Source: Candidatus Barnesiella excrementavium (GTDB lineage Bacteria; Bacteroidota; Bacteroidia; Bacteroidales; Barnesiellaceae). From it: a stretch of 64,000 bases of DNA. Location: positions 1 through 64,000 of the forward strand of contig DXDM01000002.1 in NCBI GenBank assembly GCA_019115485.1. The letters run 5' to 3'. The notes under the pieces were generated by a model, which made no database searches, was not told the DNA's origin, and saw nothing but the letters and a program-made list of their open reading frames with translations. A program made the translations under genes and the position numbers. Below, piece by piece: positions 45,310 through 64,000 of the stretch (the stretch's first letter is position 1; each line of letters begins with the position of its first letter).

Positions 45310-45332
45310 TCGATACCCTCGTAAGAGTTAAA

Positions 45333-45370
45333 ACGAAGCGACAGCCGCAGGCTGCCGCTTCGTTTTTTTA
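45333..45370 (+). terminator. Terminator after the exb/ton cluster
   Basis: ACGAAGCG.CAGCC pairs with GGCTG.CGCTTCGT around GCA, followed by seven T. Confidence 0.9.
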
Positions 45371-45785
45371 TGTGAAAGTCTGTCCCAAAAAGGATATAAT
45401 TTGGTGCGAAATGCAGATAAAAATAAAAAAGAATATTCCCGTGGGCTTTTGTTGGAAATAAAATTTGTATATTTGTGCGACAAAAATTTTCGAGGAATAA
45501 TGGGCGGAAAAACGAAGGACTTTTGACAACAAGCAGCCGCTTGTGAACTTTGTTTGAAATAGCTTAAATCCTTGGGTATAAATAAAGTGAGACTGTATGT
45601 TTGGCTCTGAGTGGAATAAGGCGATATTGGATTGCGCGGCCGTGTTTATGGCAGAGCGGTGCCGTATCTCCATCTCGGGCGTGTATGTATAGTTATGAAC
45701 AGAGGGGCCTTGTATTGCGAATGCGTCAATACGGGGCTTTGTTATGAAAAAGAAAATAGAAAATAAATACAAACTAATTTAACGT
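45371..45785 (+). promoter_or_regulatory. Long upstream region of nuoA
   Basis: A TATATTTG box (45468-45475) is a perfect -7 match, with TTTG (45448-45451) only 16 nt upstream. The predicted leader is about 300 nt, unusually long. It holds a short 31-codon frame (45597-45692) of doubtful value and a hairpin (GCCTTGTATTG/CAATACGGGGC, 45707-45737) followed by TTTG rather than a full T-run, just before nuoA. No known riboswitch was recognised. Confidence 0.45.
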
Positions 45786-46136
45786 ATGAATTCTGCACTA
45801 TTTGTAGTTGTATTGATTACCGGATTGGCGTTGGTAGGAGCGGCACTGTTGATTGCCGGCCTTATCTCTCCGCGCTCGTTCAATCCGCAGAAGGGTGAGC
45901 CCTATGAGTGTGGTATCCCCTCGCGAGGCGAATCGTGGATGCAGTTCAAGGTAGGCTACTATCTGTTTGCCATACTGTATCTGATGTTCGACGTCGAAAC
46001 GGTATTCTTGTTCCCCTGGGCGGTTATATTGAAAGATTTGGGTATAGCCGGATTATTTAATATTTTATTTTTCATGGTAATACTTATCCTGGGATTGGTA
46101 TATGCCTGGAAGAAAGGAGCACTCGAATGGAAGTGA
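45786..46136 (+). CDS. nuoA: NADH-quinone oxidoreductase subunit A
   Basis: A 116-aa three-helix membrane subunit of complex I at the junction between arm and membrane. Conserved: '[28 protein letters not shown]' (given in parts: KGEPYECGI and [10 protein letters not shown]) and '[12 protein letters not shown]'. It overlaps nuoB by 10 nt and opens the split nuo cluster. Confidence 0.97.
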
Positions 46137-46711
46137 AAATCAAATCGATGAAGTATGAAGACTTCAAAGACAATGAATATATCGAACAACTTATCAGCGA
46201 GCTCAAAGCATCGCACACCAATGTGGTGGTGGGGTGCCTTGACGAAGTCATCAATTGGGGCCGGTCCAACTCTTTGTGGCCGCTTACCTTTGCGACAAGT
46301 TGCTGCGGTATCGAGTTTATGTCACTCGGCGCAGCGCGGTACGACATGGCCCGTTTCGGGTTTGAAGTAGCCCGTGCCAGTCCGCGTCAGGCCGACTTTG
46401 TGATGGTGGCCGGTACGATTGTACATCGTATGGCTCCGGTGCTCAAACGGTTGTATGACCAGTTGGCCGAGCCCAAGTATGTAGTGGCCGTAGGCGGTTG
46501 TGCCGTATCGGGAGGCCCGTTCAAGAATTCGTACCACGTGCTGAAAGGCGTCGACGAGATTTTGCCGGTCGATGTCTATATCCCGGGGTGTCCCCCGCGG
46601 CCCGAAGCCATGTTCTATGGTTTGATGCAGTTGCAACGCAAGGTGAAAGTAGAAAAATTCTTCGGTGGCGTAAACCGTCAGGAAAAACGAGAGAAAGTAT
46701 TTGGAAAATAA
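46127..46711 (+). CDS. nuoB: NADH-quinone oxidoreductase subunit B
   Basis: A 194-aa peripheral subunit holding the terminal 4Fe-4S cluster N2, with ligands in 'TSCCGIEFM', '[11 protein letters not shown]' and '[10 protein letters not shown]'. It passes electrons to quinone. The first ATG overlaps nuoA; an alternative ATG at 46148 would shorten it by seven residues. Confidence 0.97.
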
Positions 46712-46725
46712 TATAAGTTACCTAT

Positions 46726-48348
46726 ATGGCAAACATACAGCAAGAAATAAGCAGTTTTCTGCCGGAAGCCACCTTCGTGGAGGGGCCTATCCTGGAAGTG
46801 TCGGTGCCCGATGCCAAGTGGCACGACCTGGCGCTTTATCTGCGTGACAAACTGCACTTCGACTATTTGGTTTCTATCGTAGGCATGGACTGGGGCGAGA
46901 CTCTGGGCTGTGTCTATTATCTCACGCGCACGGCCGACAACGAGCAAGTATCGGTAAAAGTTGAAACTGCCGACCGCGAAAATCCGTTGCTCCACTCGGT
47001 CGTAGACCTTTGGAAATCGGCCTATTTGTATGAGCGCGAGGTTTACGACTTCTTCGGAATCCGTTTCATCAATCACCCCGACATGCGGCGTCTCTTCCTG
47101 CGCAACGACTGGGTGGGTTATCCCTTGCGCAAGGACTACAACGCCGATCCCGAGGTAAATCCCATTCGCCTCGAACACGAAGCTGTCGACGATGTGACAC
47201 ATGCCATTGTCGAGACTCCCGACGGAAAACTCGAAGAGCGCACGAACGTGCTGTTCGCCCCCGAGGAGTTTGTTGTCAACATAGGCCCGCAGCACCCTGC
47301 CACGCACGGTGTATTGCGCTTGCGCACCTCGCTCGACGGCGAGATTGTCAAGAAAATCGATGTCTATTGCGGTTATGTACACCGGGGTATCGAGAAGTTG
47401 TGCGAGTCGCTCACCTATCCGCAGACGCTCCACTTTGCCGACCGTCTCGACTATCTGTCGGCTCAGCAGAACCGTCATGCCGTGTGCCTCTGTATTGAGG
47501 ACGCCCTGCAAGTCGAGGTCCCGGCCCGTGCCCAGTATGTGCGCACCATCATGGACGAGCTGATGCGTATCTCGTCGCACCTGTTGTTCTATGCGACCTT
47601 CTGCATGGACCTGGGTGCCACGACCGCCTTCTTCTACGGATTCCGCGATCGTGAGAAAATTCTCGACATCTTTGAGGAGACTTGCGGTGCCCGCATGACC
47701 TTCAACTACTATACAATCGGCGGTCTGATGGCCGACATTCACCCCGACTTCCAGCGCAAGGTGAAAGAGTTCTGCGCCTACATGCCGGGCATGTTGAAAG
47801 ATTATCACCAGTTGTTTACCGGCAACGTGATAGCCCAGCAACGTATGAAAGGCGTGGGATTGCTCTCGCGCGAAGATGCCATCTCGTACGGTATTGCCGG
47901 TCCGTCGGGCCGTGCTTCGGGTTGGGCTTGCGACGTACGTAAGAATCACCCGTATGCGTTGTACGATAAGGTCGAGTTCAACGAGGTTCTCCGCACCGAG
48001 GGCGACGTCTTTGCCCGCTACATGGTGCGTATGGACGAAATCTTGGAGTCGATTCACATTATCGAGCAACTCATCGACAATATTCCCGAAGGCGACTATG
48101 CCGTGAAGATGAAACCCATCATCAAGCTGCCCGAAGGCCGTTACTTCCGTCAGGTCGAGGCCAGTCGTGGTCCGATAGGTATCTTTATCGAGAGCCATGG
48201 GGACAAGAATCCTTACCGGTTGAAAATCAATTCGGCTTGTTTGCCGCTGGTTGGCGGGCTCGACGCGATGTGTCGCAACGGAAAAATTGCCGACCTCATT
48301 GCCATCGGCGGTTCGCTCGACTATGTAATCCCCGATATGGACAGATAA
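46726..48348 (+). CDS. nuoCD: NADH-quinone oxidoreductase fused subunit C/D
   Basis: A 540-aa fusion. Residues about 1-150 are the NuoC part ('YLVSIVGMDWGE', 'YLYEREVYDFFGI', 'RRLFLRNDWVGYPLRKDY'); from about 180 it is NuoD ('NIGPQHPATHGVLRL', 'GYVHRGIEKLCE', 'SLDYVIPDMDR' at the end). NuoD forms the quinone pocket with NuoB. The fusion is common in Bacteroidota and some proteobacteria. Confidence 0.96.
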   Translation: MANIQQEISSFLPEATFVEGPILEVSVPDAKWHDLALYLRDKLHFDYLVSIVGMDWGETLGCVYYLTRTADNEQVSVKVETADRENPLLHSVVDLWKSAYLYEREVYDFFGIRFINHPDMRRLFLRNDWVGYPLRKDYNADPEVNPIRLEHEAVDDVTHAIVETPDGKLEERTNVLFAPEEFVVNIGPQHPATHGVLRLRTSLDGEIVKKIDVYCGYVHRGIEKLCESLTYPQTLHFADRLDYLSAQQNRHAVCLCIEDALQVEVPARAQYVRTIMDELMRISSHLLFYATFCMDLGATTAFFYGFRDREKILDIFEETCGARMTFNYYTIGGLMADIHPDFQRKVKEFCAYMPGMLKDYHQLFTGNVIAQQRMKGVGLLSREDAISYGIAGPSGRASGWACDVRKNHPYALYDKVEFNEVLRTEGDVFARYMVRMDEILESIHIIEQLIDNIPEGDYAVKMKPIIKLPEGRYFRQVEASRGPIGIFIESHGDKNPYRLKINSACLPLVGGLDAMCRNGKIADLIAIGGSLDYVIPDMDR

Positions 48349-48380
48349 TTAGTAATCAAAAATAAATTAAAGAATAAGTT

Positions 48381-49457
48381 ATGTTCGACTTTTCGATAGT
48401 TACCCACTGGATCGATAATTTGTTGAGGAGCGTGATGCCCGGCTGGGGAGCTTTGCTGATTGAATTTGTATTGGTAGGCGTGGCGCTGTTGCTGCTGTAT
48501 GCCGTGCTGGCCCTGTTCTACATATATTTTGAACGTAAGGTGTGCGCCTTTTTCCAGTGCCGTCTGGGCCCCAATCGGGTAGGCCCCTACGGTATCTTCC
48601 AGAGTGTGGCCGATATGTTCAAAATCCTGATTAAGGAGTTGATATCGTTGAATCACATCGATAAGTTCCTGTTCAATCTGGCACCATATCTGGTCATCGT
48701 CGCTTCGATGCTGGCCTTCGGCTGTCTGCCGTTCGGCAAAGGATTGCAGGTAATCGATTTCAATATCGGTATATTCTTCCTGATAGCCGTTTCGTCGATA
48801 GGTGTGCTGGGTATTCTGCTGGCCGGTTGGTCGAGCCACAACAAATACACGCTCATCGGTGCTATCCGAAGCGGTGCACAGATGGTCAGCTACGAGCTCT
48901 CCATCGGGTTGTCGGTATTGACAATGGTCGTATTTGCCGGCACGATGTCGATTACCGGTATCGTCGAGGCACAGAACAACGGTTGGTTCATCTTCACGGG
49001 ACACATTCCCGCCATCGTGGCCTTCCTCGTCTACCTGGTAGCCGGTACGGCCGAGACCAATCGTGGCCCGTTCGACTTGCCCGAGGCCGAAAGTGAGTTG
49101 ACCGCCGGTTATCACACCGAGTATTCGGGTATTCACTTCGGTTTCTTCTACCTGGCCGAGTATCTGAACCTCTTCATCGTCTCGGGAGTAGCCTCGTTGC
49201 TCTTCCTGGGTGGCTGGATGCCGTTCCACATTCCCGGTTGGGAGAGCTTCAACCACATCATGGACTATATTCCCTCGGTGGTTTGGTTCTTTGGGAAAGC
49301 CATCGTTATCTCGTTTATCATCATTTGGTTCAAGTGGACTTTCCCCCGGTTGAGAATCGACCAACTGTTGCGTCTCGAATGGAAATACTTGTTGCCGATA
49401 AACTTGGTAAACCTCTTTGTTATGGTGCTCATCGTTATTTACGGGTTGCACTTTTAA
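48381..49457 (+). CDS. nuoH: NADH-quinone oxidoreductase subunit H
   Basis: A 358-aa membrane subunit with eight or nine helices that lines the quinone channel. Conserved loops '[21 protein letters not shown]' (in parts: [11 protein letters not shown] and RLGPNRVGP), '[20 protein letters not shown]' and '[18 protein letters not shown]' are present. The next gene, only 36 nt on and without a terminator between, is atpD rather than nuoI. Confidence 0.97.
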
Positions 49458-51005
<1,548 letters not shown>

Positions 51006-51021
51006 AAAAGAGATGTGAAGT

Positions 51022-51255
51022 ATGGTACTTGAAATTATATCGTCGGAACAAATCCTTTTCCAAGGAGAGGTCGAATCGGTCACCTTGCCGGGTGCCCAGG
51101 GTTCGTTTACCGTTCTTGAAAATCATGCATCGCTGGTCTCGACGCTCGATGCCGGTACCATTGAATATGTGACGGCAGGCGAACGCCATTCGGTACCTGT
51201 CGGTGGAGGGTTTGTCGATGTGGATAACAACCGTGTAGCCGTGTGCGTGCGGTAA
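51022..51255 (+). CDS. atpC: ATP synthase subunit epsilon (short form)
   Basis: Only 77 aa: the N-terminal beta-sandwich is complete ('EIISSEQILFQGEVESVTLPG', in parts: EIISSEQILF, VESVTLPG; 'GSFTVLENHASLVSTL'), but the C-terminal helical hairpin of classical epsilon (about 130 aa) is absent. That hairpin carries ATP-hydrolysis inhibition in E. coli, so this enzyme must lack that brake. Short epsilon is usual in Bacteroidota. It links the central stalk gamma to the c-ring. Confidence 0.92.
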   Translation: MVLEIISSEQILFQGEVESVTLPGAQGSFTVLENHASLVSTLDAGTIEYVTAGERHSVPVGGGFVDVDNNRVAVCVR

Positions 51256-51273
51256 TTGGTGGAGTAAAAAGAG

Positions 51274-52356
51274 ATGAGAAAACAAATCGCATACATAGTT
51301 GCCTTTCTGATGATGGCCTTTTCGTTCAATCTGTCGGCTCAGCAGACGAGCGAGACGGAAGAGACGAAAGCCTTCAACCCGAAAGAGACGATTTTTAAGC
51401 ACCTGCTCGATGAATATAGCTGGGAGTTGCCTTTCTCGCACGAGCATAAGATTACGCTCCCGGTTATTGTGAGAGACTACAAGGGCGACTGGAAGGTATT
51501 CTGGTCGAGCCGTCTCGAACATGGACAGCAGTACGAAGGATTCTACATCGCTCAGGACGGCCCCAACAAGGGCAAGGTCGAGAGTGTCGACGACCAGGGC
51601 AACCGCTACCGGCCGCTCGACCTGTCGATTACGAAAAACGTGCTGGCCTTGATTATCGCTGCCTTGTTGTGCATGTGGTGTGTGCTCTCGGTAGCCCGCT
51701 GGTACAAGAAGAAACACTACAAGGCACCCCGCAAGGGGGTAGGGGCTATCGAGTTCCTCATTGAGTTTATCTATACGGGAGTCATCAAGAGCACCTTGGG
51801 CGACAAGGCCCCTCGGTTTGCCCCCTATCTGCTCACGATATTCTTCTTCATCTTGCTGATGAACCTGCTGGGACTGATTGTCATCTTCCCCGGTGGAGCC
51901 AACCTGACGGGTAATATTGCCGTCACCATGGTGCTGGCCCTGTGTACTTTTATCGTGGTCAACGTGAAGGGAACCAAGGAGTATTGGAAAGAGACCTTCT
52001 GGCCCGATGTGCCTCTGTGGTTGAAGTTTCCGCTGCCCATCATGCCGCTCATCGAGGTGTTTGGAATCTTCACCAAACCGGCGGCCCTCATGGTCCGTCT
52101 CTTTGCCAACATGATGGGAGGCCACATGATTATCCTGTCGCTCATCTCGCTCATCTTCATCTTTGGAGCCTTTGGAGCCGTGGTAGTAGGCGGTATAACC
52201 GTCGTATCGGTATTCTTCTCGCTCTTCATGTTGATGATCGATACCCTGGTATCGTTTATCCAGGCCTATGTATTTACGATGCTTTCGACCCTGTTCATCT
52301 CGTTGGCACAGGTCGAGGGGCATCATGAAGGAAAAGTAGAAAAAGTAGAAAAATAA
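51274..52356 (+). CDS. atpB: ATP synthase subunit a with long exported N-terminus
   Basis: The a-subunit provides the proton half-channels. This one is 360 aa, about 100 longer than the E. coli form, because an N-terminal signal-like segment ('YIVAFLMMAFSFNLSAQ') and a hydrophilic periplasmic stretch (about 25-115) precede the usual helices. The essential arginine lies in 'LMVRLFANMMGGHMI'. An extended AtpB is typical of Bacteroidota; the role of the extra domain is unknown. In many relatives a small gene lies between atpC and atpB; here the gap is only 18 nt. Confidence 0.94.
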   Translation: MRKQIAYIVAFLMMAFSFNLSAQQTSETEETKAFNPKETIFKHLLDEYSWELPFSHEHKITLPVIVRDYKGDWKVFWSSRLEHGQQYEGFYIAQDGPNKGKVESVDDQGNRYRPLDLSITKNVLALIIAALLCMWCVLSVARWYKKKHYKAPRKGVGAIEFLIEFIYTGVIKSTLGDKAPRFAPYLLTIFFFILLMNLLGLIVIFPGGANLTGNIAVTMVLALCTFIVVNVKGTKEYWKETFWPDVPLWLKFPLPIMPLIEVFGIFTKPAALMVRLFANMMGGHMIILSLISLIFIFGAFGAVVVGGITVVSVFFSLFMLMIDTLVSFIQAYVFTMLSTLFISLAQVEGHHEGKVEKVEK

Positions 52357-52376
52357 AATAAATGTATAATCTCTAA

Positions 52377-52643
<267 letters not shown>

Positions 52644-52652
52644 TCGTAAGAT

Positions 52653-53150
52653 ATGGAACTGTTCACGCCCGAAATAGGCTTGGTATTTTGGATGTTCGTT
52701 GTCTTCGTCATCCTGTTTGTCATACTCGCCAAGTTTGGCTGGCCCTACATTTTGCGCAGCCTCGACGAACGAGCCGAGTTCATTGACAAGGGGGTGGAGT
52801 ATGCCCAGGAGGCCAAATCGCACCTGGATAACGCACAGGCCGAAGCCAAAGCTCTTTTGGTCGAAGCGCAGAAACAACAAATGGAGATTCTGCACGAAGC
52901 TGCCCAGATGAAGACTCAGATTATTGAGGAAGCACGTCAGGCAGCCTCGGTAGAAGCTAAAAAAGTGATGGACGCTGCGGCCGTGTCGATCGAGCAGGCC
53001 CGCAAAGAGTCGGAACTCCAATTCCGCCGCGAAGTGAGCCAGTTTGCCCTGCAAATTGCCGAGAAGATGATGCGCAAGCAACTCTCCGACGACAAGACAC
53101 AGGTCGAAATGGTCGACAAACTGTTGAATGAAATCGAGAATCAAAACTAA
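52653..53150 (+). CDS. atpF: ATP synthase subunit b
   Basis: The 165-aa peripheral stalk: one N-terminal membrane helix ('LVFWMFVVFVILFVILAKF') followed by a long Ala/Glu/Lys/Gln-rich coiled coil. Only one b gene is present, so it is a homodimer. It begins 9 nt after atpE and ends 6 nt before atpH. Confidence 0.96.
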   Translation: MELFTPEIGLVFWMFVVFVILFVILAKFGWPYILRSLDERAEFIDKGVEYAQEAKSHLDNAQAEAKALLVEAQKQQMEILHEAAQMKTQIIEEARQAASVEAKKVMDAAAVSIEQARKESELQFRREVSQFALQIAEKMMRKQLSDDKTQVEMVDKLLNEIENQN

Positions 53151-53156
53151 TAGAAC

Positions 53157-53699
53157 ATGAACGAGGGGTTAATACCGAATAGATATGCGAAAGCTCTCTA
53201 CAAATACGCCCGGGAACATGGTGTGGCCGAGGCGATTTATGAAGAGATGAAACGCCTTGATGACGCCTTTAAGGCGCATCCCGAGTTTTCAAAAGTATTG
53301 GGTAACCCGGCTCTTTCTCCTTCGGACAAGGTACGGGTGCTGTCATCGGTTTTCGGTGAAAAGCCCGACGACTATCTGCTCCGTTTTGTTCAGTTAGTTA
53401 TCAAGAACCGTCGCGAAACGTTTGTAAGGTCTATCGGACTGGCCTATCAGGATATCTATCGCCGGGCCAACCACATTGCCCGCGTGACGATAATCACCGC
53501 CACCGCCTTGAACAAAGAGGTGCTGGGGCGCATCGGCGACCTTATGAAAAAGCAAACGGACAAGACGCTGGAATTTGTATATGAAATAGATCCCACCCTT
53601 ATCGGCGGATTTATTTTGCGCGTAGATTTGATGCAATTAGATGCTTCGGTCAATAGTGAATTAAAAAAATTGCGTTTGAAATTGCTAAACAGCAAGTGA
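53157..53699 (+). CDS. atpH: ATP synthase subunit delta
   Basis: A 180-aa protein that caps F1 and holds the b stalk. N-terminal '[16 protein letters not shown]' and C-terminal '[22 protein letters not shown]' region (in parts: [13 protein letters not shown]) are diagnostic. One base separates it from atpA. Confidence 0.96.
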
Positions 53700-53700
53700 T

Positions 53701-55278
53701 ATGATAAAACCCAGTGAAATATCGGATATATTAAAGAAACAACTCGACGAGGTCGACACCAAAATCAATTTCGAAGAAGTAGGTACTGTTCTCGAAGTGG
53801 GTGATGGCGTGGCTCACGTGTACGGGCTCGACAATGTGCGTTCCAGCGAATTGATTGAGTTTGAAAACGGTGTACACGGTGTGGCCATGAACCTGGAAGA
53901 GAGCAATGTGGGTGTCATCTTGCTCGATAACGTCGACAAGGTTACCGAGAACATGACTGCCCGTCGCACCGGCGAAATAGCCTCTCTGCCTGTGGGTGAA
54001 GGATTGCTTGGTCGAGTTATCAATACGTTGGGTGAACCTATCGATGGCGCAGGTCCCATTCAAGGCGACCTTATCAGATTGCCCCTCGAGCGCAAGGCTC
54101 CGGGTGTAATCTTCCGCCAACCGGTAAAGCAACCCTTGCAGACCGGTATCAAGGCCATCGACTCGATGGTGCCCATCGGCCGCGGACAACGTGAGCTGAT
54201 TATCGGCGACCGCCAGATCGGTAAGACGGCGATTGCCATCGACACGATTATCAACCAACGGGACAATTACAAAAACGGGACTCCCCTTTATTGTATCTAT
54301 GTGGCTATCGGACAGAAAGCCTCGTCGGTAGCCGCTCTGGTCAATACCCTGCGGGAACACGGAGCCCTCGACTATACGGTCGTGCTGGCCGCCAATGCCT
54401 CCGACTCGGCTGCGATGCGCTACTATGCACCGTTTGCCGGTGCCGCCATCGGCGAGTATTTCAGAGACCGCGGCTGTCACGCACTGGTCATCTACGACGA
54501 CCTCTCGAAACAGGCCGTGGCCTATCGTGAAATTTCGTTGATTCTGCGTCGTCCTTCGGGTCGTGAAGCCTACCCGGGCGATATCTTCTACCTGCACTCC
54601 CGTCTGCTCGAGCGTGCCGCCAAGATTATCGAGAACGACGAGGTAGCCGCTTCGATGAACGACCTGCCCGAGGTATTGAAGCCGATGGTAAAAGGTGGCG
54701 GTTCGTTGACAGCCCTGCCTATCATCGAGACCCAGGCCGGTGACGTGTCGGCCTATATCCCTACCAACGTGATTTCGATTACCGACGGTCAGATATTCTT
54801 GGAGACCGCCCTCTTCAACCAGGGTGTGCGTCCCGCCATCAACGTAGGTATCTCGGTTTCGCGTGTGGGTGGTAGCGCTCAGGTGAAGGCCATGAAGAAG
54901 ATTGCCGGTACGTTGAAGATCGACCAGGCTCAGTTCCGTGAGCTCGAATCGTTCACCAAGTTCGGTGGCGATGTCGACCCGGTAACCGCCATGACCATCG
55001 ACAAGGGTCGCAAGAACGAGCGTATCCTCATACAGCCCCAGTATTCGCCTGTCCCCGTCGAGGAGGAGATTGCCATCATCTATTGCGGTACGCAAGGATT
55101 GTTGCACAACGTACCTCTCGACAAGGTAGCCGAATTTGAGAAATTGTATTTGCAGATATTGAAATCAAAATATAGCCACGAGGTTCTGGACGAACTGCGG
55201 GCCGGACATCTCGACGACAAGATTTCCGCCCTCATGACCGAGGTCGCTACCGAGGTGGCTAATCGATTTAAGGCATAA
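53701..55278 (+). CDS. atpA: ATP synthase subunit alpha
   Basis: The 525-aa non-catalytic nucleotide-binding subunit of F1, with '[15 protein letters not shown]' (P-loop), '[10 protein letters not shown]'-type '[16 protein letters not shown]' and '[20 protein letters not shown]' (in parts: [13 protein letters not shown]). Full length. It lies between atpH and atpG with 1 and 6 nt gaps. Confidence 0.98.
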
Positions 55279-55284
55279 TAGACT

Positions 55285-56166
55285 ATGGCATCAATGCGCG
55301 ACTTGAAAGGAAGAATCGGTTCGGTCGCTTCTTCCGAAAAAATAACCGGTGCGATGAAGATGATTTCGTCGGCCAAGATGCACAAGGCCGATTTGGCTCT
55401 GCGTCGTGTGCGGCCGTTCCGGGATCAGATTCAGCGTACCATCAATCATCTTATTTCTGCCGATGCAGAGTATAGTTCACCGCTCACCGAGGTACGTCCC
55501 GTGAAGCGGCGGGCCGTAGTCGTGCTCAGCTCGGACGAGGGATTGTGTGGCGCATTCAACATGAATCTGTTCAAACGCACGCTCGAAATCATCAACCAGG
55601 GGCTCGGAGAGACTATTAATCCCGTGATGTTTGTTGTTTATCCGATAGGGAAGAAAGCCTCTCAATTTGCTCACAAACTGGTAGGCGAGGGCGTGGAGAT
55701 TGCCATGACCGATTACATGACGGCCAAGAGCCCGGGTGAGGATATAGCCCGTTTTACCAACGAGCTTACCCGCGACTTCGTGGCCGGCAAAATCGACGAA
55801 ATAGAGGTTGTATATACTCATTATAAAAGTGCCAGTAAACAGACGTTGGCCACGCGCCGGCTGTTGCCGATTGCGGCCGACGATTTGGCTACCGGCGAGA
55901 AGGCCGAGCGCAACAAGCCCTACTTGTTCGAGCCCGACGTGAATACCATTTATAATGAGATACTGCCGCTTTATGTCTTGTCGAACATGCAGGAAGCCAT
56001 CTGCTCCAACCGAGTATCCGAACAGGCGGCTCGGGTGATGGCCATGCAGTCGGCAAACGATAATGCCAGGGAACTGTTGGACGACCTGCAACTCGAATAC
56101 AACAAACTGCGTCAGCAGAGCATTACAGCCGAGTTGCTGGATATCGCAGGAGGACGAGTAGATTGA
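55285..56166 (+). CDS. atpG: ATP synthase subunit gamma
   Basis: The 293-aa central rotor shaft. The N-terminus 'DLKGRIGSVASSEKITGAMKM' (in parts: RIGSVASSEKITGAMKM) and the C-terminal 'NARELLDDLQLEYNKLRQQSIT' (NARELLDDLQLEYNKLRQ) form the coiled coil. It is the last atp gene; a weak terminator-like hairpin and nuoI follow. Confidence 0.97.
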   Translation: MASMRDLKGRIGSVASSEKITGAMKMISSAKMHKADLALRRVRPFRDQIQRTINHLISADAEYSSPLTEVRPVKRRAVVVLSSDEGLCGAFNMNLFKRTLEIINQGLGETINPVMFVVYPIGKKASQFAHKLVGEGVEIAMTDYMTAKSPGEDIARFTNELTRDFVAGKIDEIEVVYTHYKSASKQTLATRRLLPIAADDLATGEKAERNKPYLFEPDVNTIYNEILPLYVLSNMQEAICSNRVSEQAARVMAMQSANDNARELLDDLQLEYNKLRQQSITAELLDIAGGRVD

Positions 56167-56175
56167 ACCACCGAC

Positions 56176-56204
56176 AAAGAGTTTGGCACGCCAAACTCTT
56201 TTGA
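56176..56204 (+). terminator. Weak terminator/processing hairpin between atpG and nuoI
   Basis: AAAGAGTTTGG pairs with CCAAACTCTTT around CACG, followed by a short T-stretch broken by GACG. Possibly a partial terminator that lets some transcription run on into nuoI-N. No clear promoter was found between it and nuoI. Confidence 0.5.
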
Positions 56205-56260
56205 CGCTTGAAATAAACCATAGTGTTAACTAATAAAATAAGAGTTCTGTAAAGAGATTT

Positions 56261-56725
56261 ATGGGAAGTTTTAAAAATTACATGACATCTTTCTGGAAAG
56301 GATTGCTGAGCCTTCTGCAAGGAATGGAAGTGACCGGTAAATACTTCTTGAGCCGGAAAGTTACCGAACAGTATCCCGAAAACCGGGCGACCTTGAAAAT
56401 CCCCGAGCGTTTCAGAGGTACATTGACCTTGATTTACGATGAAAACGGGCAACACAAATGTGTGGCTTGCGGTATCTGTCAGATGAATTGCCCCAACGGG
56501 ACAATCAAAATCGAGGCCTCGAAGATTACCACCGAAGATGGTAAGACCAAAAGAGTGTTAGATAAATATGTGTATGACCTGGGTAGTTGCACCTTCTGCC
56601 AGATGTGTGTGAACACATGTCCTCACCACGCCATCAAGTTCACCAACGAATTTGAGCACGCCGTTTTCCAACGGGATAAACTGGTGAAGATTCTCAATCA
56701 TACCGATAACCCAACCGAAAAATAA
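56261..56725 (+). CDS. nuoI: NADH-quinone oxidoreductase subunit I
   Basis: A 154-aa ferredoxin-like subunit carrying two 4Fe-4S clusters (CVACGICQMNCP and CTFCQMCVNTCP), which pass electrons towards NuoB. In this complex, without NuoEFG, it would be the entry point for electrons. It begins the second half of the nuo genes, 94 nt after atpG. Confidence 0.96.
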   Translation: MGSFKNYMTSFWKGLLSLLQGMEVTGKYFLSRKVTEQYPENRATLKIPERFRGTLTLIYDENGQHKCVACGICQMNCPNGTIKIEASKITTEDGKTKRVLDKYVYDLGSCTFCQMCVNTCPHHAIKFTNEFEHAVFQRDKLVKILNHTDNPTEK

Positions 56726-56737
56726 TAGATTAACATT

Positions 56738-57256
56738 ATGGAACAAATAGCAAATCAAGTTATCTTCGGCTTGCTTGCACTGGTCATCGTGGTGTGTTCG
56801 ATTCTGACCGTCACCACCCGACGCATTCTGCGGGCTGCCACTTACCTCCTGTTCGTTCTGTTTGCGACAGCCGGTATTTATTTCCAGCTTGACTTCACCT
56901 TTTTGGGCGCCGTACAATTAGCCGTCTATGCCGGTGGTATTGTGGTGCTGTTTGTCTTCTCGATTCTGTTGACGAGTCACCCCGGAGACAAATCGGCGTT
57001 GCTCACGCCCAAGAAGAGAGTGGTCGGGCTCATTGCTTCGATATTCGGCGCCATCGTGTGCGGCTATACGCTGCTCACCTATCCGTTCTTCACCAAGCCG
57101 CTCACCAGTGTCATCACCGGCGAGGTCGACATGAAGGTGATCGGCCATGCGCTCATGGGGGTAGAGAAGTACCAGTATCTGCTGCCCTTTGAAGCAATCA
57201 GTGTGTTGTTACTGGCATGTATCATCGGTGGCATTATGATTGCCCGTAAAAGATAA
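56738..57256 (+). CDS. nuoJ: NADH-quinone oxidoreductase subunit J
   Basis: A 172-aa membrane subunit with five helices; 'LDFTFLGAVQLAVYAGGIVVLFVF' (in parts: LDFTFLGAVQLAVYAGGI) is the conserved pi-bulge helix. Six bases separate it from nuoK. Confidence 0.95.
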   Translation: MEQIANQVIFGLLALVIVVCSILTVTTRRILRAATYLLFVLFATAGIYFQLDFTFLGAVQLAVYAGGIVVLFVFSILLTSHPGDKSALLTPKKRVVGLIASIFGAIVCGYTLLTYPFFTKPLTSVITGEVDMKVIGHALMGVEKYQYLLPFEAISVLLLACIIGGIMIARKR

Positions 57257-57261
57257 GAACT

Positions 57262-57573
57262 ATGGAAATACCAATGATTGCCTATTTGGTGGTAAGTACC
57301 ATCATGTTTTTTGCCGGGGTTTACGGGTTTGTGACACGTAAGAATATGCTGGCGATGCTCATTTCGCTCGAATTGATGCTCAATGCGGCCGACATCAACT
57401 TTGTGGTGTTCAACCGTTACCTTTATCCCGAGGCCTTGGAGGGATTCTTCTTCACCCTCTTTGCAATAGGTATTGCCGCTGCCGAGACAGCGCTTGCCAT
57501 TGCAATCATTATCAACATCTTCCGCCACATTCGGAATGTTGACGTGCATAACCTTGATAAAATGAAATATTGA
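57262..57573 (+). CDS. nuoK: NADH-quinone oxidoreductase subunit K
   Basis: A 103-aa three-helix proton-channel subunit with conserved glutamates in 'LISLELMLNAADINFV' and 'GIAAAETALAIAI'. It ends six bases before nuoL. Confidence 0.96.
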   Translation: MEIPMIAYLVVSTIMFFAGVYGFVTRKNMLAMLISLELMLNAADINFVVFNRYLYPEALEGFFFTLFAIGIAAAETALAIAIIINIFRHIRNVDVHNLDKMKY

Positions 57574-57578
57574 TCGAT

Positions 57579-59486
57579 ATGGAATATTCAGTTATAATAC
57601 TTTTACTCCCGCTTTGCATGTTCCTCTTTCTGGGACTTGTGGGGCATAAGTTGAGCGAACGCGTTTCCGGCGTATTGGGAACCCTCGGGTTGACCGTTAC
57701 CGCCGTGCTGGCCTACATGGTAGCGTTCAACTATTTTACTATGCCGCGCAATGCCGAAGGCGTTTTTGAGACTTTGCAGCCGGTCAACTTCGAGTGGTTG
57801 CGCTTTACCGAGCAACTGCATATCGACCTGGGTATCTTGCTGGACCCCATCTCGGTCATGATGCTGGTGGTTATCACCACGGTTTCGCTCATGGTACACA
57901 TTTACAGTCTGGGCTACATGCACGGTGAGAAGGGCTTCCAACGCTATTACGCCTTCTTGTCGCTGTTCAGCTTCTCCATGTTGGGGCTGGTGGTTGCCAC
58001 AAACATTTTCCAGATGTATATCTTCTGGGAGCTGGTGGGTGTATCGTCCTACCTGCTTATCGGATTCTACTATACCAAACCGGCTGCGGTATCGGCCTCG
58101 AAGAAAGCCTTTATCGTTACCCGTTTTGCCGACCTGGGCTTCCTGATCGGTATCCTTATCCTCTCGTTCTTTACCGAGACGTTCGACTTCCAGACGCTGA
58201 TGTCGAATCCCACGTCGCTGGTAACCGAGACGGCCGGCATGACCTTCATGGGTTGCTCGGTAGCCGCCTGGGCCATGGCCCTCATCTTCATGGGCGGTGC
58301 CGGTAAGTCGGCCATGTTCCCGTTGCACATCTGGTTGCCCGATGCCATGGAAGGTCCTACTCCGGTATCGGCCTTGATTCACGCCGCTACGATGGTGGTT
58401 GCCGGTGTCTATCTGGTAGCTCGGCTCTTCCCCATGTACTGTGCCGTGCCCGAGGTGCTCGACCTCATTACCTGGGTGGGTGCCATCACGGCGCTCTATG
58501 CCGCAGTCGTTGCCTGTGTGCAAACCGATATCAAACGGGTGCTCGCCTTCTCGACCATTTCGCAGATTGCCTTTATGATGGTGGCTCTGGGTGTGGCCTT
58601 CGATACGGACCTGCACGCCGGTCTCGGCTATATGGCCTCCATGTTCCACCTCTTCACGCACGCCATGTTCAAGGCGCTGCTCTTCCTCGGTGCCGGTTGC
58701 ATTATCCATGCCGTTCACTCCAACGAGATGTCCGAAATGGGTAACCTGCACAAATACATGCCGGTGACCCATATCACCTTCCTGATTGCCTGCCTGGCTA
58801 TCGCCGGTATTCCTCCCTTCTCGGGCTTCTTCAGTAAGGACGAGATTCTTACGGCCGCTTTCGAGAAAAGCACGTTGTGGGGCGTATGGATGACGGCTGT
58901 GGCCGGTCTCACCGCCTTCTACATGTTCCGTCTCTACTACCGCATTTTCTGGTGGAGCAAACCTTCGTATGAGCACCACACGCCGCACGAGGCTCCCAAG
59001 ACCATGTACCTGCCGCTGGTATTCCTGGCACTGGTTACCTGTGTGGCCGGTTTCATTCCCTTCGGCGAGTTCGTATCGGTAAACGGTGAGGCCTATCACA
59101 TTCACCTCGACTGGTCGGTAGCTACGACGAGCATCATCGTGGCCGTTGCCGCCATTGCCCTGGCCACCTGGATGTATCGCTCGGAGAACTCCAAGCCCAA
59201 AGCCTTGGCCGACAAGTTCCGCGCACTGCACACGGCAGCTTACCACCGTTTTTACATGGACGAACTTTACATGTGGGTTACCCACAAGATTATATTCCAG
59301 CATATCTGCCGGCCCATCGCCTGGTTCGACCGTCATGTCGTTGATGGCACGATGAATATGTTGGCTACCGTTACCAACGGAGTTTCCTACGGCATACGCA
59401 AGTTGCAGTCGGGATATATCCAATGGTATGTGTGGGTATTCATTATGGGCGCATTGTTGATTGCCGTACTGGCCATGTGCTTTTAA
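57579..59486 (+). CDS. nuoL: NADH-quinone oxidoreductase subunit L
   Basis: The distal antiporter-like proton pump subunit, 635 aa with about 14-16 helices and the long lateral helix near the C-terminus. Key residues are in 'FWELVGVSSYLLIGFYY', 'GAGKSAMFPLHIWLPDAMEGPTPVSALIHAATMV' (in parts: GGAGKSAMFPLHIWLPDAM, GPTPVSALIHAATMV). The ATG at 57579 is preferred to an in-frame TTG inside the nuoK stop. Confidence 0.97.
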   Translation: MEYSVIILLLPLCMFLFLGLVGHKLSERVSGVLGTLGLTVTAVLAYMVAFNYFTMPRNAEGVFETLQPVNFEWLRFTEQLHIDLGILLDPISVMMLVVITTVSLMVHIYSLGYMHGEKGFQRYYAFLSLFSFSMLGLVVATNIFQMYIFWELVGVSSYLLIGFYYTKPAAVSASKKAFIVTRFADLGFLIGILILSFFTETFDFQTLMSNPTSLVTETAGMTFMGCSVAAWAMALIFMGGAGKSAMFPLHIWLPDAMEGPTPVSALIHAATMVVAGVYLVARLFPMYCAVPEVLDLITWVGAITALYAAVVACVQTDIKRVLAFSTISQIAFMMVALGVAFDTDLHAGLGYMASMFHLFTHAMFKALLFLGAGCIIHAVHSNEMSEMGNLHKYMPVTHITFLIACLAIAGIPPFSGFFSKDEILTAAFEKSTLWGVWMTAVAGLTAFYMFRLYYRIFWWSKPSYEHHTPHEAPKTMYLPLVFLALVTCVAGFIPFGEFVSVNGEAYHIHLDWSVATTSIIVAVAAIALATWMYRSENSKPKALADKFRALHTAAYHRFYMDELYMWVTHKIIFQHICRPIAWFDRHVVDGTMNMLATVTNGVSYGIRKLQSGYIQWYVWVFIMGALLIAVLAMCF

Positions 59487-59521
59487 CTGATGGTTGAACG
59501 ATAAAAAATTAAAGAAACACT

Positions 59522-61012
59522 ATGAATTTTCTATCCTTATTTGTGCTTATCCCTCTCTTGATGATGCTGGGTCTCTGGATCGCAAGAGATATGAAACAGA
59601 TACGAACGGTAGCGGTTATTGGTTCAACCTTATTGTTGGCATTGTCCGTTTACACTCTCGTTGAGTTTCTGGCCGAACGCGCTGCTGGAAATACAGCGAC
59701 GATGTTGTTTACCGATAGCCGCATGTGGTATGCTCCGCTGAACATTCACTACGCTGTCGGCGTGGACGGTGTATCGGTGGCCATGTTGCTGCTCTCGTCC
59801 ATTATAGTTTTTGCCGGAGTCTTCGCTTCGTGGAAAATCAACCCCCTGCCCAAGGAGTTCTTCCTGTGGTTCATGTTGCTTTCGACGGGTGTGTTTGGCT
59901 TCTTCATCTCGGTCGACCTCTTCACGATGTTCATGTTCTACGAAGTGGCTCTTATCCCCATGTACCTGCTGATTGGCGTTTGGGGCAGCGGCCGCAAGAA
60001 CTACTCGGCCATGAAGCTGACGCTGATGCTGATGGGTGGTTCGGCCCTGCTGATGATTGGCATTTTGGGCATCTACTACCAATCGGGTCTCCACTCGATG
60101 AACGTGGTCGAAATTGCCGAACACGGTAATATCCCCATGAACTGGCAATACTTCCTCTTCCCGATGACCTTTGTCGGTTTCGGTGTGCTGGGAGCCATGT
60201 TCCCGTTCCACACTTGGTCGCCCGATGGTCACGCTTCGGCGCCCACGGCCGTGTCGATGTTGCACGCCGGTGTGCTGATGAAGCTGGGTGGTTACGGCTG
60301 CTTCCGGGTAGCCATCTACCTCATGCCTCAGGCAGCCAATGAACTGGCCTGGATATTCCTGATTTTGACTGGTATCAGTGTTGTTTACGGTGCATTCAGC
60401 GCTTGTGTACAGACCGACTTGAAATACATCAATGCCTACTCTTCGGTAAGCCACTGCGGTTTGGTACTCTTCGCAATTCTCATGCTCAACACCACGGCCA
60501 TGACCGGTGCGGTGATGCAGATGCTCTCGCACGGTTTGATGACGGCCCTCTTCTTTGCCCTCATCGGTATGATTTACGGTCGTACCCACACTCGTGACAT
60601 TCGCGAGATGGGCGGTCTGATGCAAATCATGCCGTTCCTTTCGGTAGGTTACGTGATTGCCGGTTTGGCTTCGCTGGGTCTGCCGGGATTGAGTGGATTC
60701 GTGGCCGAGATGACCATCTTCGTTGGTTCGTTCGAGCACACCGATACCTTCCACCGGGTATTTACGATTGTTGCTTGTACCTCGATTGTGATTACGGCAG
60801 TCTATATTCTGCGCGTGGTCGGGAAACTGCTGTACGGTGCCGTTCAAAACGAACACCATCGCGAGTTGACCGATGCCGAATGGTGGGAACGCCTCTCGGT
60901 AATTACCCTTATCGTGTGTGTGGTTGCCATCGGTAGCTTCCCCCACTGGATTTCCGATTTGATTCGTGGCGGTGTGGAACCTATTACTAATTTGTTGTCT
61001 CAAGCTCTTTAA
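59522..61012 (+). CDS. nuoM: NADH-quinone oxidoreductase subunit M
   Basis: The second antiporter-like pump subunit, 496 aa with about 14 helices. Conserved: '[19 protein letters not shown]', '[20 protein letters not shown]' and '[12 protein letters not shown]'. It lies 35 nt after nuoL and 11 nt before nuoN. Confidence 0.97.
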
Positions 61013-61023
61013 TCATACAGTAT

Positions 61024-62457
61024 ATGGATTATTCACAGTTTTTAGTTATGCGCTCGGAAATATCGCTGCTGGTTGTATTCCTGCTGATATTTCTCGTAGA
61101 CACCTTTGGTGGAAACAAGAGCCTCAAAGGATTATCGATTACAGCGTGTGTCCTGTTTGCCCTGCACACGATCTGGAACATCATACCGGTCGAGTCGGCA
61201 TCGGCTTTTGGCGGCATGTATCAGACGTCGCCCATCGCGTCGATGGTAAAGACCGTGCTTAACATAGGTACCTTCATCGTGTTGCTGCAATCGATTTCGT
61301 GGAGCGACACTCCCGATGTAAAAGTACGTCGGGGTGAGTTTTACGAGTTGTTGCTGGTGACCCTCTTCGGTATGTACCTGATGGTTTCGTCGGGACACTT
61401 CCTGCTCTTCTTCATCGGGCTCGAGACCGCTTCGCTGCCTATGGCCGCGCTCATCGCCATTACCAAGAAAGACTCGGAGTCGTATGAGGCCGGTGCCAAA
61501 TACCTCTTCACGGCTGTCTTCTCGTCGGCACTCTTCTTGTTGGGACTCTCGTTCCTCTATGGCGTTTCGGGTTCGCTCTATTTCGACGACATCGCCCTCA
61601 ACATTGCCGGCAATCACACGCCGCTGTTCATCGCCACGCTCGTCTTTGTGCTGGCCGGTATGGGATTCAAGCTCTCGCTCGTTCCCTTCCACTTGTGGAC
61701 AGCCGACGTCTACGAAGGAGCTCCCACGCAGGTCACCTCTTACCTGTCGGTTATCTCGAAGGGTTCGGCAGCCTTTGCCCTCATGCTGATTCTCTACAAG
61801 GTCTTCGCCTTTGAACCGGCCGTTTGGCAAGGCATCATGTGGGCCTTGATTGTACTGACGATTACCGTGGGCAACCTGTTTGCCATTCGTCAGAAGAACC
61901 TGAAACGGTTCCTGGCCTTCTCGTCTATCTCGCAGGCCGGTTACATCATGCTGGGTATCATTGCCGGTTCGATTCAAGGTACGACCGCGCTGGTTTACTA
62001 CGTACTGGTTTACATCTTCTCCAACCTGGCCGCCTTCGGCGTTATCTCGTCAATCGAGCACAACAGCGGCAAGGTGAATATGGACGACTACAACGGCCTC
62101 TACAAGACCAACCCCAAACTGAGTGTCATCATGATGTTGGCCATGTTCTCGCTGGCCGGTATCCCTCCGTTCGCCGGATTCTTCAGCAAGTTCTTCATCT
62201 TTGCTTCGGCCATTCACTCGGGATTCTATATTCTGGTGCTCATCGCCTTGCTGAATACCATCATTTCGCTCTACTACTATCTGCTGGTGGTAAAGGCCAT
62301 GTTTATCAATACCGAGAACGAGTGTGTCATCGCACCCTTCCGCAGCGACAACGGTTCGCGCGTGAGTCTCATCGTGTGTGTAGCCGGTATCCTGTTGCTG
62401 GGTATTGCCAGCTGCGTATATGGTTACTTTGCCGACCTCAGCGCACTGGGCCTCTAA
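61024..62457 (+). CDS. nuoN: NADH-quinone oxidoreductase subunit N
   Basis: The third antiporter-like pump subunit, 477 aa. '[15 protein letters not shown]', '[21 protein letters not shown]' (in parts: [19 protein letters not shown]) and '[14 protein letters not shown]' identify it. It ends the cluster, followed by a terminator. No nuoE, nuoF or nuoG follows or precedes within the window. Confidence 0.97.
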
Positions 62458-62488
62458 TCGAAAGCAATCAATATTCTGTATAGACAAA

Positions 62489-62526
62489 GGGCCGGAGAGC
62501 AAATGCTCCCCGGCCCTCTTTTTTGC
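62489..62526 (+). terminator. Terminator of the nuo-atp-nuo cluster
   Basis: GGGCCGG.GAGC pairs with GCTC.CCGGCCC around AAAT, followed by TCTTTTTTTG. It lies between convergent genes and may serve both. Confidence 0.85.
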
Positions 62527-62535
62527 CGTCGCCTC

Positions 62536-64000
62536 TCAGGCATAGCTGTGCATGCCGCCCAGCAGAAAGTTGACGCCGAAGTAGGTAATGAGCACGCAGA
62601 GGAATGCGACCACACAGAACCCGTGAAAGAAGGCAGGTTTCCTGAATAATGGCAACGACTCCGGGTGCAGGGCCATGGCGTAGATGAGCCAGGTGATGAG
62701 TGCCCATACTTCTTTGGGGTCCCAGCCCCAGTATCGTCCCCACGAGATATTGGCCCATACGGCTCCCACGAAGATGCCGGCCGCCAGGGCAAATACGGCG
62801 GGATAGAGCAGAATGCGTCCTACCGTCTGCAACTGTTCGGCTTGCCGGGGGTGACGACGGGAGAGCAGCAGTCCGGCGATGCCGTTGAACATGACGAAGG
62901 CCAGCAAGGTATAGGCGGTCATTACCAGCACCACATGTACCGAGAGCAGGGGTGAGGTGAGCACCGGCATGAGCGGGGTGATGGGGGGATTGGACTCGCT
63001 CATCATCGAGACCAGCATGGCCAGGCCGCTCACCAGATAGCCGAACGGCAGAATCAGAATGAAGCGGCGGTGGACGAGCAGGGTCATACCCAGGGCGCAC
63101 CAGGCCATGAACTGCATTGTCTCGAATCCGTTGGACAGCGGCCAGTGTCGGGCAATGTAGCCTCGCAGGAGCAGGGTAGCCGAGAGGTAGGCAAAACCGA
63201 TGATGACCCCGGCCAACAGCAACTGATGAATCAGCGGTGAGGCCGAGCCGCGCCCGATGATGCGACGGCAGGCATGGGTGAAGGCAAAGGCTCCGACGAC
63301 GAGGAAGAGTATGGCTGCAACGAGCGAGTGGCCCAGGTGATTATAGAGTAACTCGGCTTGCAGACGTCCGTTCGTGGGGAACGCCTCTCCGGCAGTCTGC
63401 CGTTGGTATCGGGCTATTTTGTCGAATACTTGTGACAGACCGGTGTAGTCGTGTTGGGCAACCAGTTCGTTCACATAATTCATCGATTGTCGTATAAAGG
63501 TACTTTGTTCCCGAGGCAGGTCGTGCGGCAGCGGGTCGACCTGTGAGGCCCAGTGCAGGGTATCGCCCTGTCGGTAGGGAAAGATTTGCAGCAACGAGCC
63601 GGTGCAGAGCATGGCCACGAGGTTGAATTTCTCGTTGGCCTCGGTGACTCCCCGGTCGTTCATACCCTCGGGTCGGTACTCCCTCACCGCGCGGTTGAAG
63701 TCGGTGAGCCGGGCATACTGCCCCTCGATACCCAGCAGACGTCGGGCCTCCCGACTTTTGATGCGAATCATTGGTTCCTGTTTCCATTCGTCGTAATAGA
63801 AGAGCCACCCGGCGAGCACCTGCTCGGGCGATAGTCCCCGGTAGTGGCTCTTCCCCGAGAGTTTCACCGTAAAGTCCCGGGCCAGTGTCGAGAGGGGGCA
63901 GATGCGCTGGTTGTAGTAGATGCAGAGCTGCCCCAACTGGTTGGCCTGTTCGTGCGGGAGGGTAGGGGGTACCCTTGTCTCGGCCGCCTGAGCCGGGAGC
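62536..64000 (-). CDS. ccsA: Cytochrome c biogenesis protein, CcsA (CcsB-CcsA fusion type), partial
   Basis: The frame is open on the minus strand from 62536 to the window edge with no stop, so the N-terminus is missing. The C-terminal half is CcsA/ResC: about eight helices and the Trp-rich haem motif 'WGRYWGWDPKEVWALITW', with histidines around it. The part nearer the edge is hydrophilic and looks like the end of a ResB/CcsB-like periplasmic region, as in the fused system II cytochrome c synthases of Bacteroidota. It exports haem and attaches it to periplasmic cytochromes c. Apparent start codons inside (for example at 63936) are internal. Confidence 0.88.
   Translation of the reverse strand, partial: LPAQAAETRVPPTLPHEQANQLGQLCIYYNQRICPLSTLARDFTVKLSGKSHYRGLSPEQVLAGWLFYYDEWKQEPMIRIKSREARRLLGIEGQYARLTDFNRAVREYRPEGMNDRGVTEANEKFNLVAMLCTGSLLQIFPYRQGDTLHWASQVDPLPHDLPREQSTFIRQSMNYVNELVAQHDYTGLSQVFDKIARYQRQTAGEAFPTNGRLQAELLYNHLGHSLVAAILFLVVGAFAFTHACRRIIGRGSASPLIHQLLLAGVIIGFAYLSATLLLRGYIARHWPLSNGFETMQFMAWCALGMTLLVHRRFILILPFGYLVSGLAMLVSMMSESNPPITPLMPVLTSPLLSVHVVLVMTAYTLLAFVMFNGIAGLLLSRRHPRQAEQLQTVGRILLYPAVFALAAGIFVGAVWANISWGRYWGWDPKEVWALITWLIYAMALHPESLPLFRKPAFFHGFCVVAFLCVLITYFGVNFLLGGMHSYA

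Follow-up and report, generated by a model that had tools for sequence, protein, structure and literature searches.

Why does the complex I gene cluster of a gut bacterium contain a whole ATP synthase operon, and do the two sets of genes form one unit? The question is raised by a locus of Candidatus Barnesiella excrementavium, at positions 45786-62457 of a 64 000-nucleotide stretch of contig DXDM01000002.1 (GenBank assembly GCA_019115485.1, 2.68 Mb in 60 contigs), referred to here as the window. There the atp genes stand between nuoH and nuoI. On the basis of a common insertion site and of two independent trees, we consider it probable that the operon was embedded once in an ancestral genome and inherited vertically since, and that in Barnesiella the genes constitute one transcription unit with attenuation after atpG.

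Genes were called from open reading frames of the + strand combined with NCBIfam matches. The calls agree exactly with the order given in the original prediction, nuoA-B-CD-H, atpD-C-B-E-F-H-A-G and nuoI-J-K-L-M-N on one strand, and with its gaps of 36 nt between nuoH and atpD and 94 nt between atpG and nuoI. Both gaps are too short to hold a gene, and the claimed lack of a mobile element at the junctions is borne out. The F1Fo operon is complete: alpha, beta, gamma, delta, epsilon, a, b and c are all present, each over at least one NCBIfam cut-off. The complex I cluster is of the Bacteroidales 11-subunit type (NuoABCDHIJKLMN), with ten genes including a fused nuoCD; nuoE, nuoF and nuoG are absent from the cluster, the rest of the genome not having been searched for them. 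At least one NCBIfam cut-off is passed by 15 of the 18 proteins, the exceptions being NuoA, NuoI and NuoJ.

45786-46136, + strand: nuoA (open frame and NCBIfam; strong match, under the curated cut-off)
46127-46711, + strand: nuoB (open frame and NCBIfam)
46726-48348, + strand: nuoCD, fused (open frame and NCBIfam)
48381-49457, + strand: nuoH (open frame and NCBIfam)
49458-49493, + strand: nuoH-atpD junction, 36 nt, without a stable hairpin (fold z -0.6)
49494-51005, + strand: atpD, F1 beta (open frame and NCBIfam)
51022-51255, + strand: atpC, F1 epsilon, 77 aa, the beta-sandwich domain alone (NCBIfam)
51274-52356, + strand: atpB, Fo a (NCBIfam)
52389-52643, + strand: atpE, Fo c (NCBIfam)
52653-53150, + strand: atpF, Fo b (NCBIfam)
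53157-53699, + strand: atpH, F1 delta (NCBIfam)
53701-55278, + strand: atpA, F1 alpha (NCBIfam)
55285-56166, + strand: atpG, F1 gamma (NCBIfam)
56261-56725, + strand: nuoI (NCBIfam; strong match, under the curated cut-off)
56738-57256, + strand: nuoJ (NCBIfam; strong match, under the curated cut-off)
57262-57573, + strand: nuoK (NCBIfam)
57570-59486, + strand: nuoL, TTG start (NCBIfam)
59522-61012, + strand: nuoM (NCBIfam)
61024-62457, + strand: nuoN (NCBIfam)

Distribution of the arrangement

In the genus of the window, the only one in its family sample, the embedding is present in 9/9 genomes, interrupted by contig ends in G006; one of the nine assemblies is a single contig. An assembly error or a recent mobile insertion can be rejected as the source of the arrangement and is extremely improbable: the junctions are repeated across nine congeneric species, of which one is assembled as a single contig, and across numerous assemblies from other families, and no evidence in support of either was found.

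The order was sampled with 198 Bacteroidales genomes of 90% completeness or more. By a reading of the listed rows, 79 of them have a NuoH of at least 52% identity; a NuoH-like match of only 41-45% (e.g. in G046, G088, G148, G152 and G158) did not qualify a genome as a bearer. The 74 NuoH genomes examined are all of the 79 except G010, G072, G179, G188 and G201. The atp genes lie between nuoH and nuoI in 15 of the 74. Three belong to the genus of the window (window included) and 12 to the families f20, f24, f27, f57, f64 and f83, in which every sampled genome (two of two per family) carries the embedding. In 58 of the remaining 59 nuoH loci nuoI comes next, mostly no more than 150 nt away (G135: 480 nt); the other locus is cut short by a contig end. 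Since the arrangement recurs in all genomes of the genus and in all 12 sampled from the six other families, it is beyond chance. The original prediction was to fall if most Bacteroidales had the same order. For the order it stands, with 15 of the 74 NuoH genomes examined; within the clade of seven families, however, the embedding is ordinary and, for one family, already published.

The GTDB collection was scanned with a NuoH alignment, and the best 80 of 513 loci, which overlap with the genomes of the order sample and are not unbiased, were retained. Among these 80, 34 are titled Muribaculaceae, Paramuribaculum or Muribaculum by our own count, 78 run into atpD and two end no more than 140 nt past nuoH; the passage from atpG to nuoI is seen in 57, the other 23 contigs stopping earlier. 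In 75 genomes drawn from the phylum there was no embedding among the matches listed; in one, G269, atpG and nuoH share a strand and are neighbours only, with atpG 8.4 kb upstream.

Family f24 was followed further in genomes at least 95% complete. NuoH and AtpG occur in 74/74 of these and share one contig in 68; five of the other six have contig ends inside the cluster, and the sixth is G386. In G386 (L271, L272), atpF is split over two contigs that both continue, and 18 residues are found in both parts.

In family f99, NuoH is present in 18 of 43 genomes, with AtpG on another contig in nine and on the NuoH contig in nine, at distances from 18 kb to over 1 Mb. Where its gene order was read (G106, G219 and G221), nuoI follows nuoH. 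In these three genomes (L263-L266, L055-L056) a distance of only some 11-19 kb separates nuo from atp, and their relative order and strand vary between genomes; their proximity is perhaps the trace of an earlier linkage. The identity of f99 AtpG to that of the window is 40-49% in the 18 NuoH genomes and 31-35% in 22 genomes without NuoH. In this family, the type of ATP synthase goes together with the presence of complex I.

Descent of the embedded operon

In a tree of six Nuo proteins with 42 tips, which took in 22 of the 59 non-embedded loci, the 20 embedded tips are monophyletic with a support of 100. An RpoB tree of 29 tips, independent of the locus, likewise makes the 14 embedded genomes monophyletic (support 100). 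The trees are without G006, and G090 is without an RpoB match. In the ATP synthase trees (26 tips), the 15 embedded operons are grouped with a support of 94 for AtpB/E/F/G and of 61 for AtpA/D, and their sister is the stand-alone operon of G106 (f99), with a support of 100. Because the bearers are monophyletic in the nuo and RpoB trees and have the site in common, a single old event followed by vertical descent is favoured. The F1Fo operon would have come to stand between nuoH and nuoI of the Bacteroidales complex I cluster without nuoEFG (11 subunits, ten genes) in the common ancestor of a clade that includes Barnesiella and Muribaculaceae. A common origin with the arrangement of the Muribaculaceae, which we infer to be f24, is supported by the shared site and by monophyly.

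The upstream neighbour, a TPR gene, stands beside the block in 7/7 loci of the genus, and a CcsB gene stands downstream in 6/7. Outside the genus, 12 loci of the other families were searched: CcsB was not found, a weak test with 1-756 nt of room, and TPR gave weak matches only, in the two f83 loci, where the room is 1080-1459 nt. As the flanking genes are kept within the genus and are unseen or weak elsewhere, while the block is intact, the nuo-atp block apparently persisted while the genes around it changed.

One might then ask whether selection preserves the embedding because it co-regulates proton pump and ATP synthase; this we regard as rather unlikely. The block is intact over seven families despite differing flanking genes, nuo and atp are equal in codon adaptation (see below), and both complexes are jointly absent from genome H5 in the account of Ormerod et al. 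2016 (PMC4936053; here and below, the parts of its text available to us). Ordinary operon constraint, however, preserves nuo and atp even where they are separate, most of the NuoH-bearing Bacteroidales examined keep them apart, and the 74 f24 genomes show no joint loss on which selection could be tested.

Transcription in Barnesiella

That joint transcription fixes the ratio of pump to synthase, as had been suggested, is a candidate reading only. The signals around the genes that bear on it are the following.

45330-45367, + strand: T-run hairpin 3' of the upstream TPR gene, putative terminator of the left border (fold)
45449-45475, + strand: candidate main promoter TTG-N16-TATATTTG, with TATATTTG at 45468-45475
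45597-45692, + strand: 31-aa open frame with the motif CRIS, candidate leader peptide (motif conservation)
56176-56201, + strand: hairpin AAAGAGTTTGG-CACG-CCAAACTCTTT in the atpG-nuoI gap (3/200 shuffles of 56150-56260 fold as well)
56210-56230, + strand: non-coding block of 21 nt before nuoI, identical in 9/9 Barnesiella genomes
62488-62524, + strand: GC-rich T-run hairpin 3' of nuoN, putative terminator of the right border (fold)

The candidate promoter was matched to what we take to be a Bacteroides-type consensus. In the 8/8 Barnesiella loci this block has two variable positions only, and its spacing is equal in L034 and L038. The fold of the left border (45300-45370) has -27.5 kcal/mol and a z of -5.7, with 0/200 shuffles as stable; that of the right border (62440-62535) has -30.8 kcal/mol and a z of -2.3, with 6/200 shuffles as stable. 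General scans for sigma-70 promoters and for terminators remained at the level of shuffled sequences (21 vs 17.8 and 15 vs 17.1). The terminator scan of the + strand listed neither of the border hairpins nor the hairpin at 56176; because it missed both borders, its silence at 56176 says little. Rfam gave nothing at gathering score over 45200-62700.

The CRIS motif is present upstream of nuoA in 8/8 Barnesiella loci and in 0/27 loci of other families. It occurs in 2/72 loci of the GTDB scan, of which L193 is a Barnesiella and L140 has it, as judged by eye, outside any such frame. Random 600-nt stretches of the window contain CRIS in 11 cases out of 2000, and its DNA pattern is found once in the genome. 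Between the window and L034, third codon positions hold 8/9 changes of the frame; over all pairs there are 66, 111 and 153 changes at positions 1, 2 and 3, a mixed pattern. The frame is likely to be coding. About 50 nt before nuoA (45700-45741, + strand), a further stretch of the leader, GCCTTGTATTG...CAATACGGGGC, appears conserved by eye in the alignment, and its two parts could pair as a hairpin.

Codon adaptation is 0.614 for nuo and 0.616 for atp, with a set of reference genes identified by visual inspection of their N-terminal residues; 34 other long frames of the window have a median of 0.571. A difference in expression between nuo and atp, tried as a candidate on this measure, was rejected because the values are equal. 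Four observations were counted for joint transcription: the promoter-like block before nuoA, the short gaps, the border hairpins and the equal codon adaptation. The promoter motif precedes atpD in 1/14 loci (L053).

The gap between atpG and nuoI complicates this picture. In 7/8 Barnesiella loci it holds a hairpin with a stem of 7-11 bp, differing in its letters, and a T-rich 3' arm. In L035, L037 and L039 this arm continues into 5-6 T; in the window only one T comes after the stem, and there the hairpin would be a weak terminator at most. It is a possible partial terminator or stabiliser of a 3' end. The two f57 and the two f64 loci also have a hairpin in this gap; one f20 locus has a strong one, and the other f20 locus and the f83 loci have weak ones by eye. 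The 21-nt block has no exact match in the other-family loci examined.

The T-rich arms and the invariant block are what would be expected if there were two or three units, in which nuoA-H and atp end at the atpG hairpin, nuoI-N have their own start, and the embedding has no regulatory role, being an accident that became fixed. We find this doubtful. A promoter motif of the form TTG-N(15-21)-TAnnTTTG was found within 200 nt upstream of nuoI in 0/17 loci scanned, the gap measures just 94 nt, and the nuo-atp block is nowhere seen broken, except perhaps in G386. We prefer the reading of a single unit that is partly attenuated after atpG. The 18 genes of Barnesiella would most likely be transcribed from a start about 310-340 nt before nuoA to the hairpin after nuoN; the atpG hairpin would probably attenuate or stabilise part of the message, and nuoI-N would be reached by read-through, their level being unlocked from that of atp. 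From what is established for both protein families, a complex that pumps protons and a synthase that uses the gradient would be made together. The atpG hairpin, as found in Barnesiella, f57 and f64, and the invariant 21-nt block argue against a strictly fixed ratio.

Several observations weigh against the reading of one embedding and one unit. In the AtpA/D tree the embedded group is weakly supported, and an AtpA-only tree placed the non-embedded G106 inside it, with weak support; as its loci stopped short of atpD, this tree was replaced by the AtpA/D and AtpB/E/F/G trees. The position of G106 also differs between trees: with f22, f56 and f9 for nuo, further out for RpoB, and as sister for atp. 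The split in G386 may be a rearrangement or an assembly error, and would count as well if it were a real break in the block. As for transcription, the promoter motif stands before nuoA in only 7/17 loci scanned, and the atpG hairpin together with the invariant block would allow nuoI-N to be transcribed on their own. Moreover, the hairpin is missing in f24, in f27 and in the 14 spacers viewed of the 57 from the GTDB scan, so that no one expression scheme holds for the whole clade. A bolder version of the proposal, in which selection maintains a respiratory supra-operon of 18 genes throughout the clade and Barnesiella runs it from one promoter with a CRIS leader peptide and read-through at atpG, co-regulated and not one-to-one, strikes us as improbable.

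Significance and comparison with known systems

If there is one transcript, the production of the pump and of the ATP synthase would be tied together in these gut bacteria, and co-regulation could be tested in an organism with the linkage built into its genome. With a single origin, the arrangement would be a genomic marker for a clade uniting Barnesiella and Muribaculaceae. The arrangement itself is already known (PMC4936053). What is new is its spread over seven families including Barnesiella, its exact site and its single origin, none of which we found in print in the literature searched.

The gene order of the embedded operon is not peculiar to it. The order atpD-C-B-E-F-H-A-G of the window is present in 9/11 stand-alone Bacteroidales loci read (L055, L249, continued on L250, and L251-L257). 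In the available text of PMC5709465, beta-epsilon-a-c-b-delta-alpha-gamma is the minor unit in Bacteroides and Prevotella, and 'nuo' does not occur in that text. These operons differ from that of the window in lying outside nuo and, in 7/9, in a stretch of 413-471 nt between atpC and atpB. In L249, L251, L254 and L255 this stretch holds a membrane-type open frame of 133-141 aa, without counterpart in the window or G106; the one scanned had no Pfam match over cut-off. The gap is short in the window, G106 and G016, and at most 184 nt in the other embedded loci. AtpC itself has 77 aa in the window and in L055, and 80-82 aa in the stand-alone L249, L251, L254 and L255.

The contrast with Bacteroides drawn in the original prediction holds for B. 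fragilis, the nuo operon of which occupies the consecutive tags BF638R_0841-0850 in the available text of PMC7002350. Like the cluster of the window it is without nuoE, F and G; unlike it, the ten consecutive tags appear to leave no room for atp.

The closest known system is the complex-I-integrated F-type ATP synthase described by Ormerod et al. in S24-7, or 'Ca. Homeothermaceae' (Muribaculaceae). There, as in the window, the atp genes are inside the nuo cluster, and complex I has 11 of 14 subunits, without NuoEFG. The available text names neither the insertion site nor a further family; the loci of f24 and those titled Muribaculaceae share the nuoH/nuoI site of the window. The window differs from this system in being Barnesiella-like, with a leader block of its own and a hairpin after atpG.
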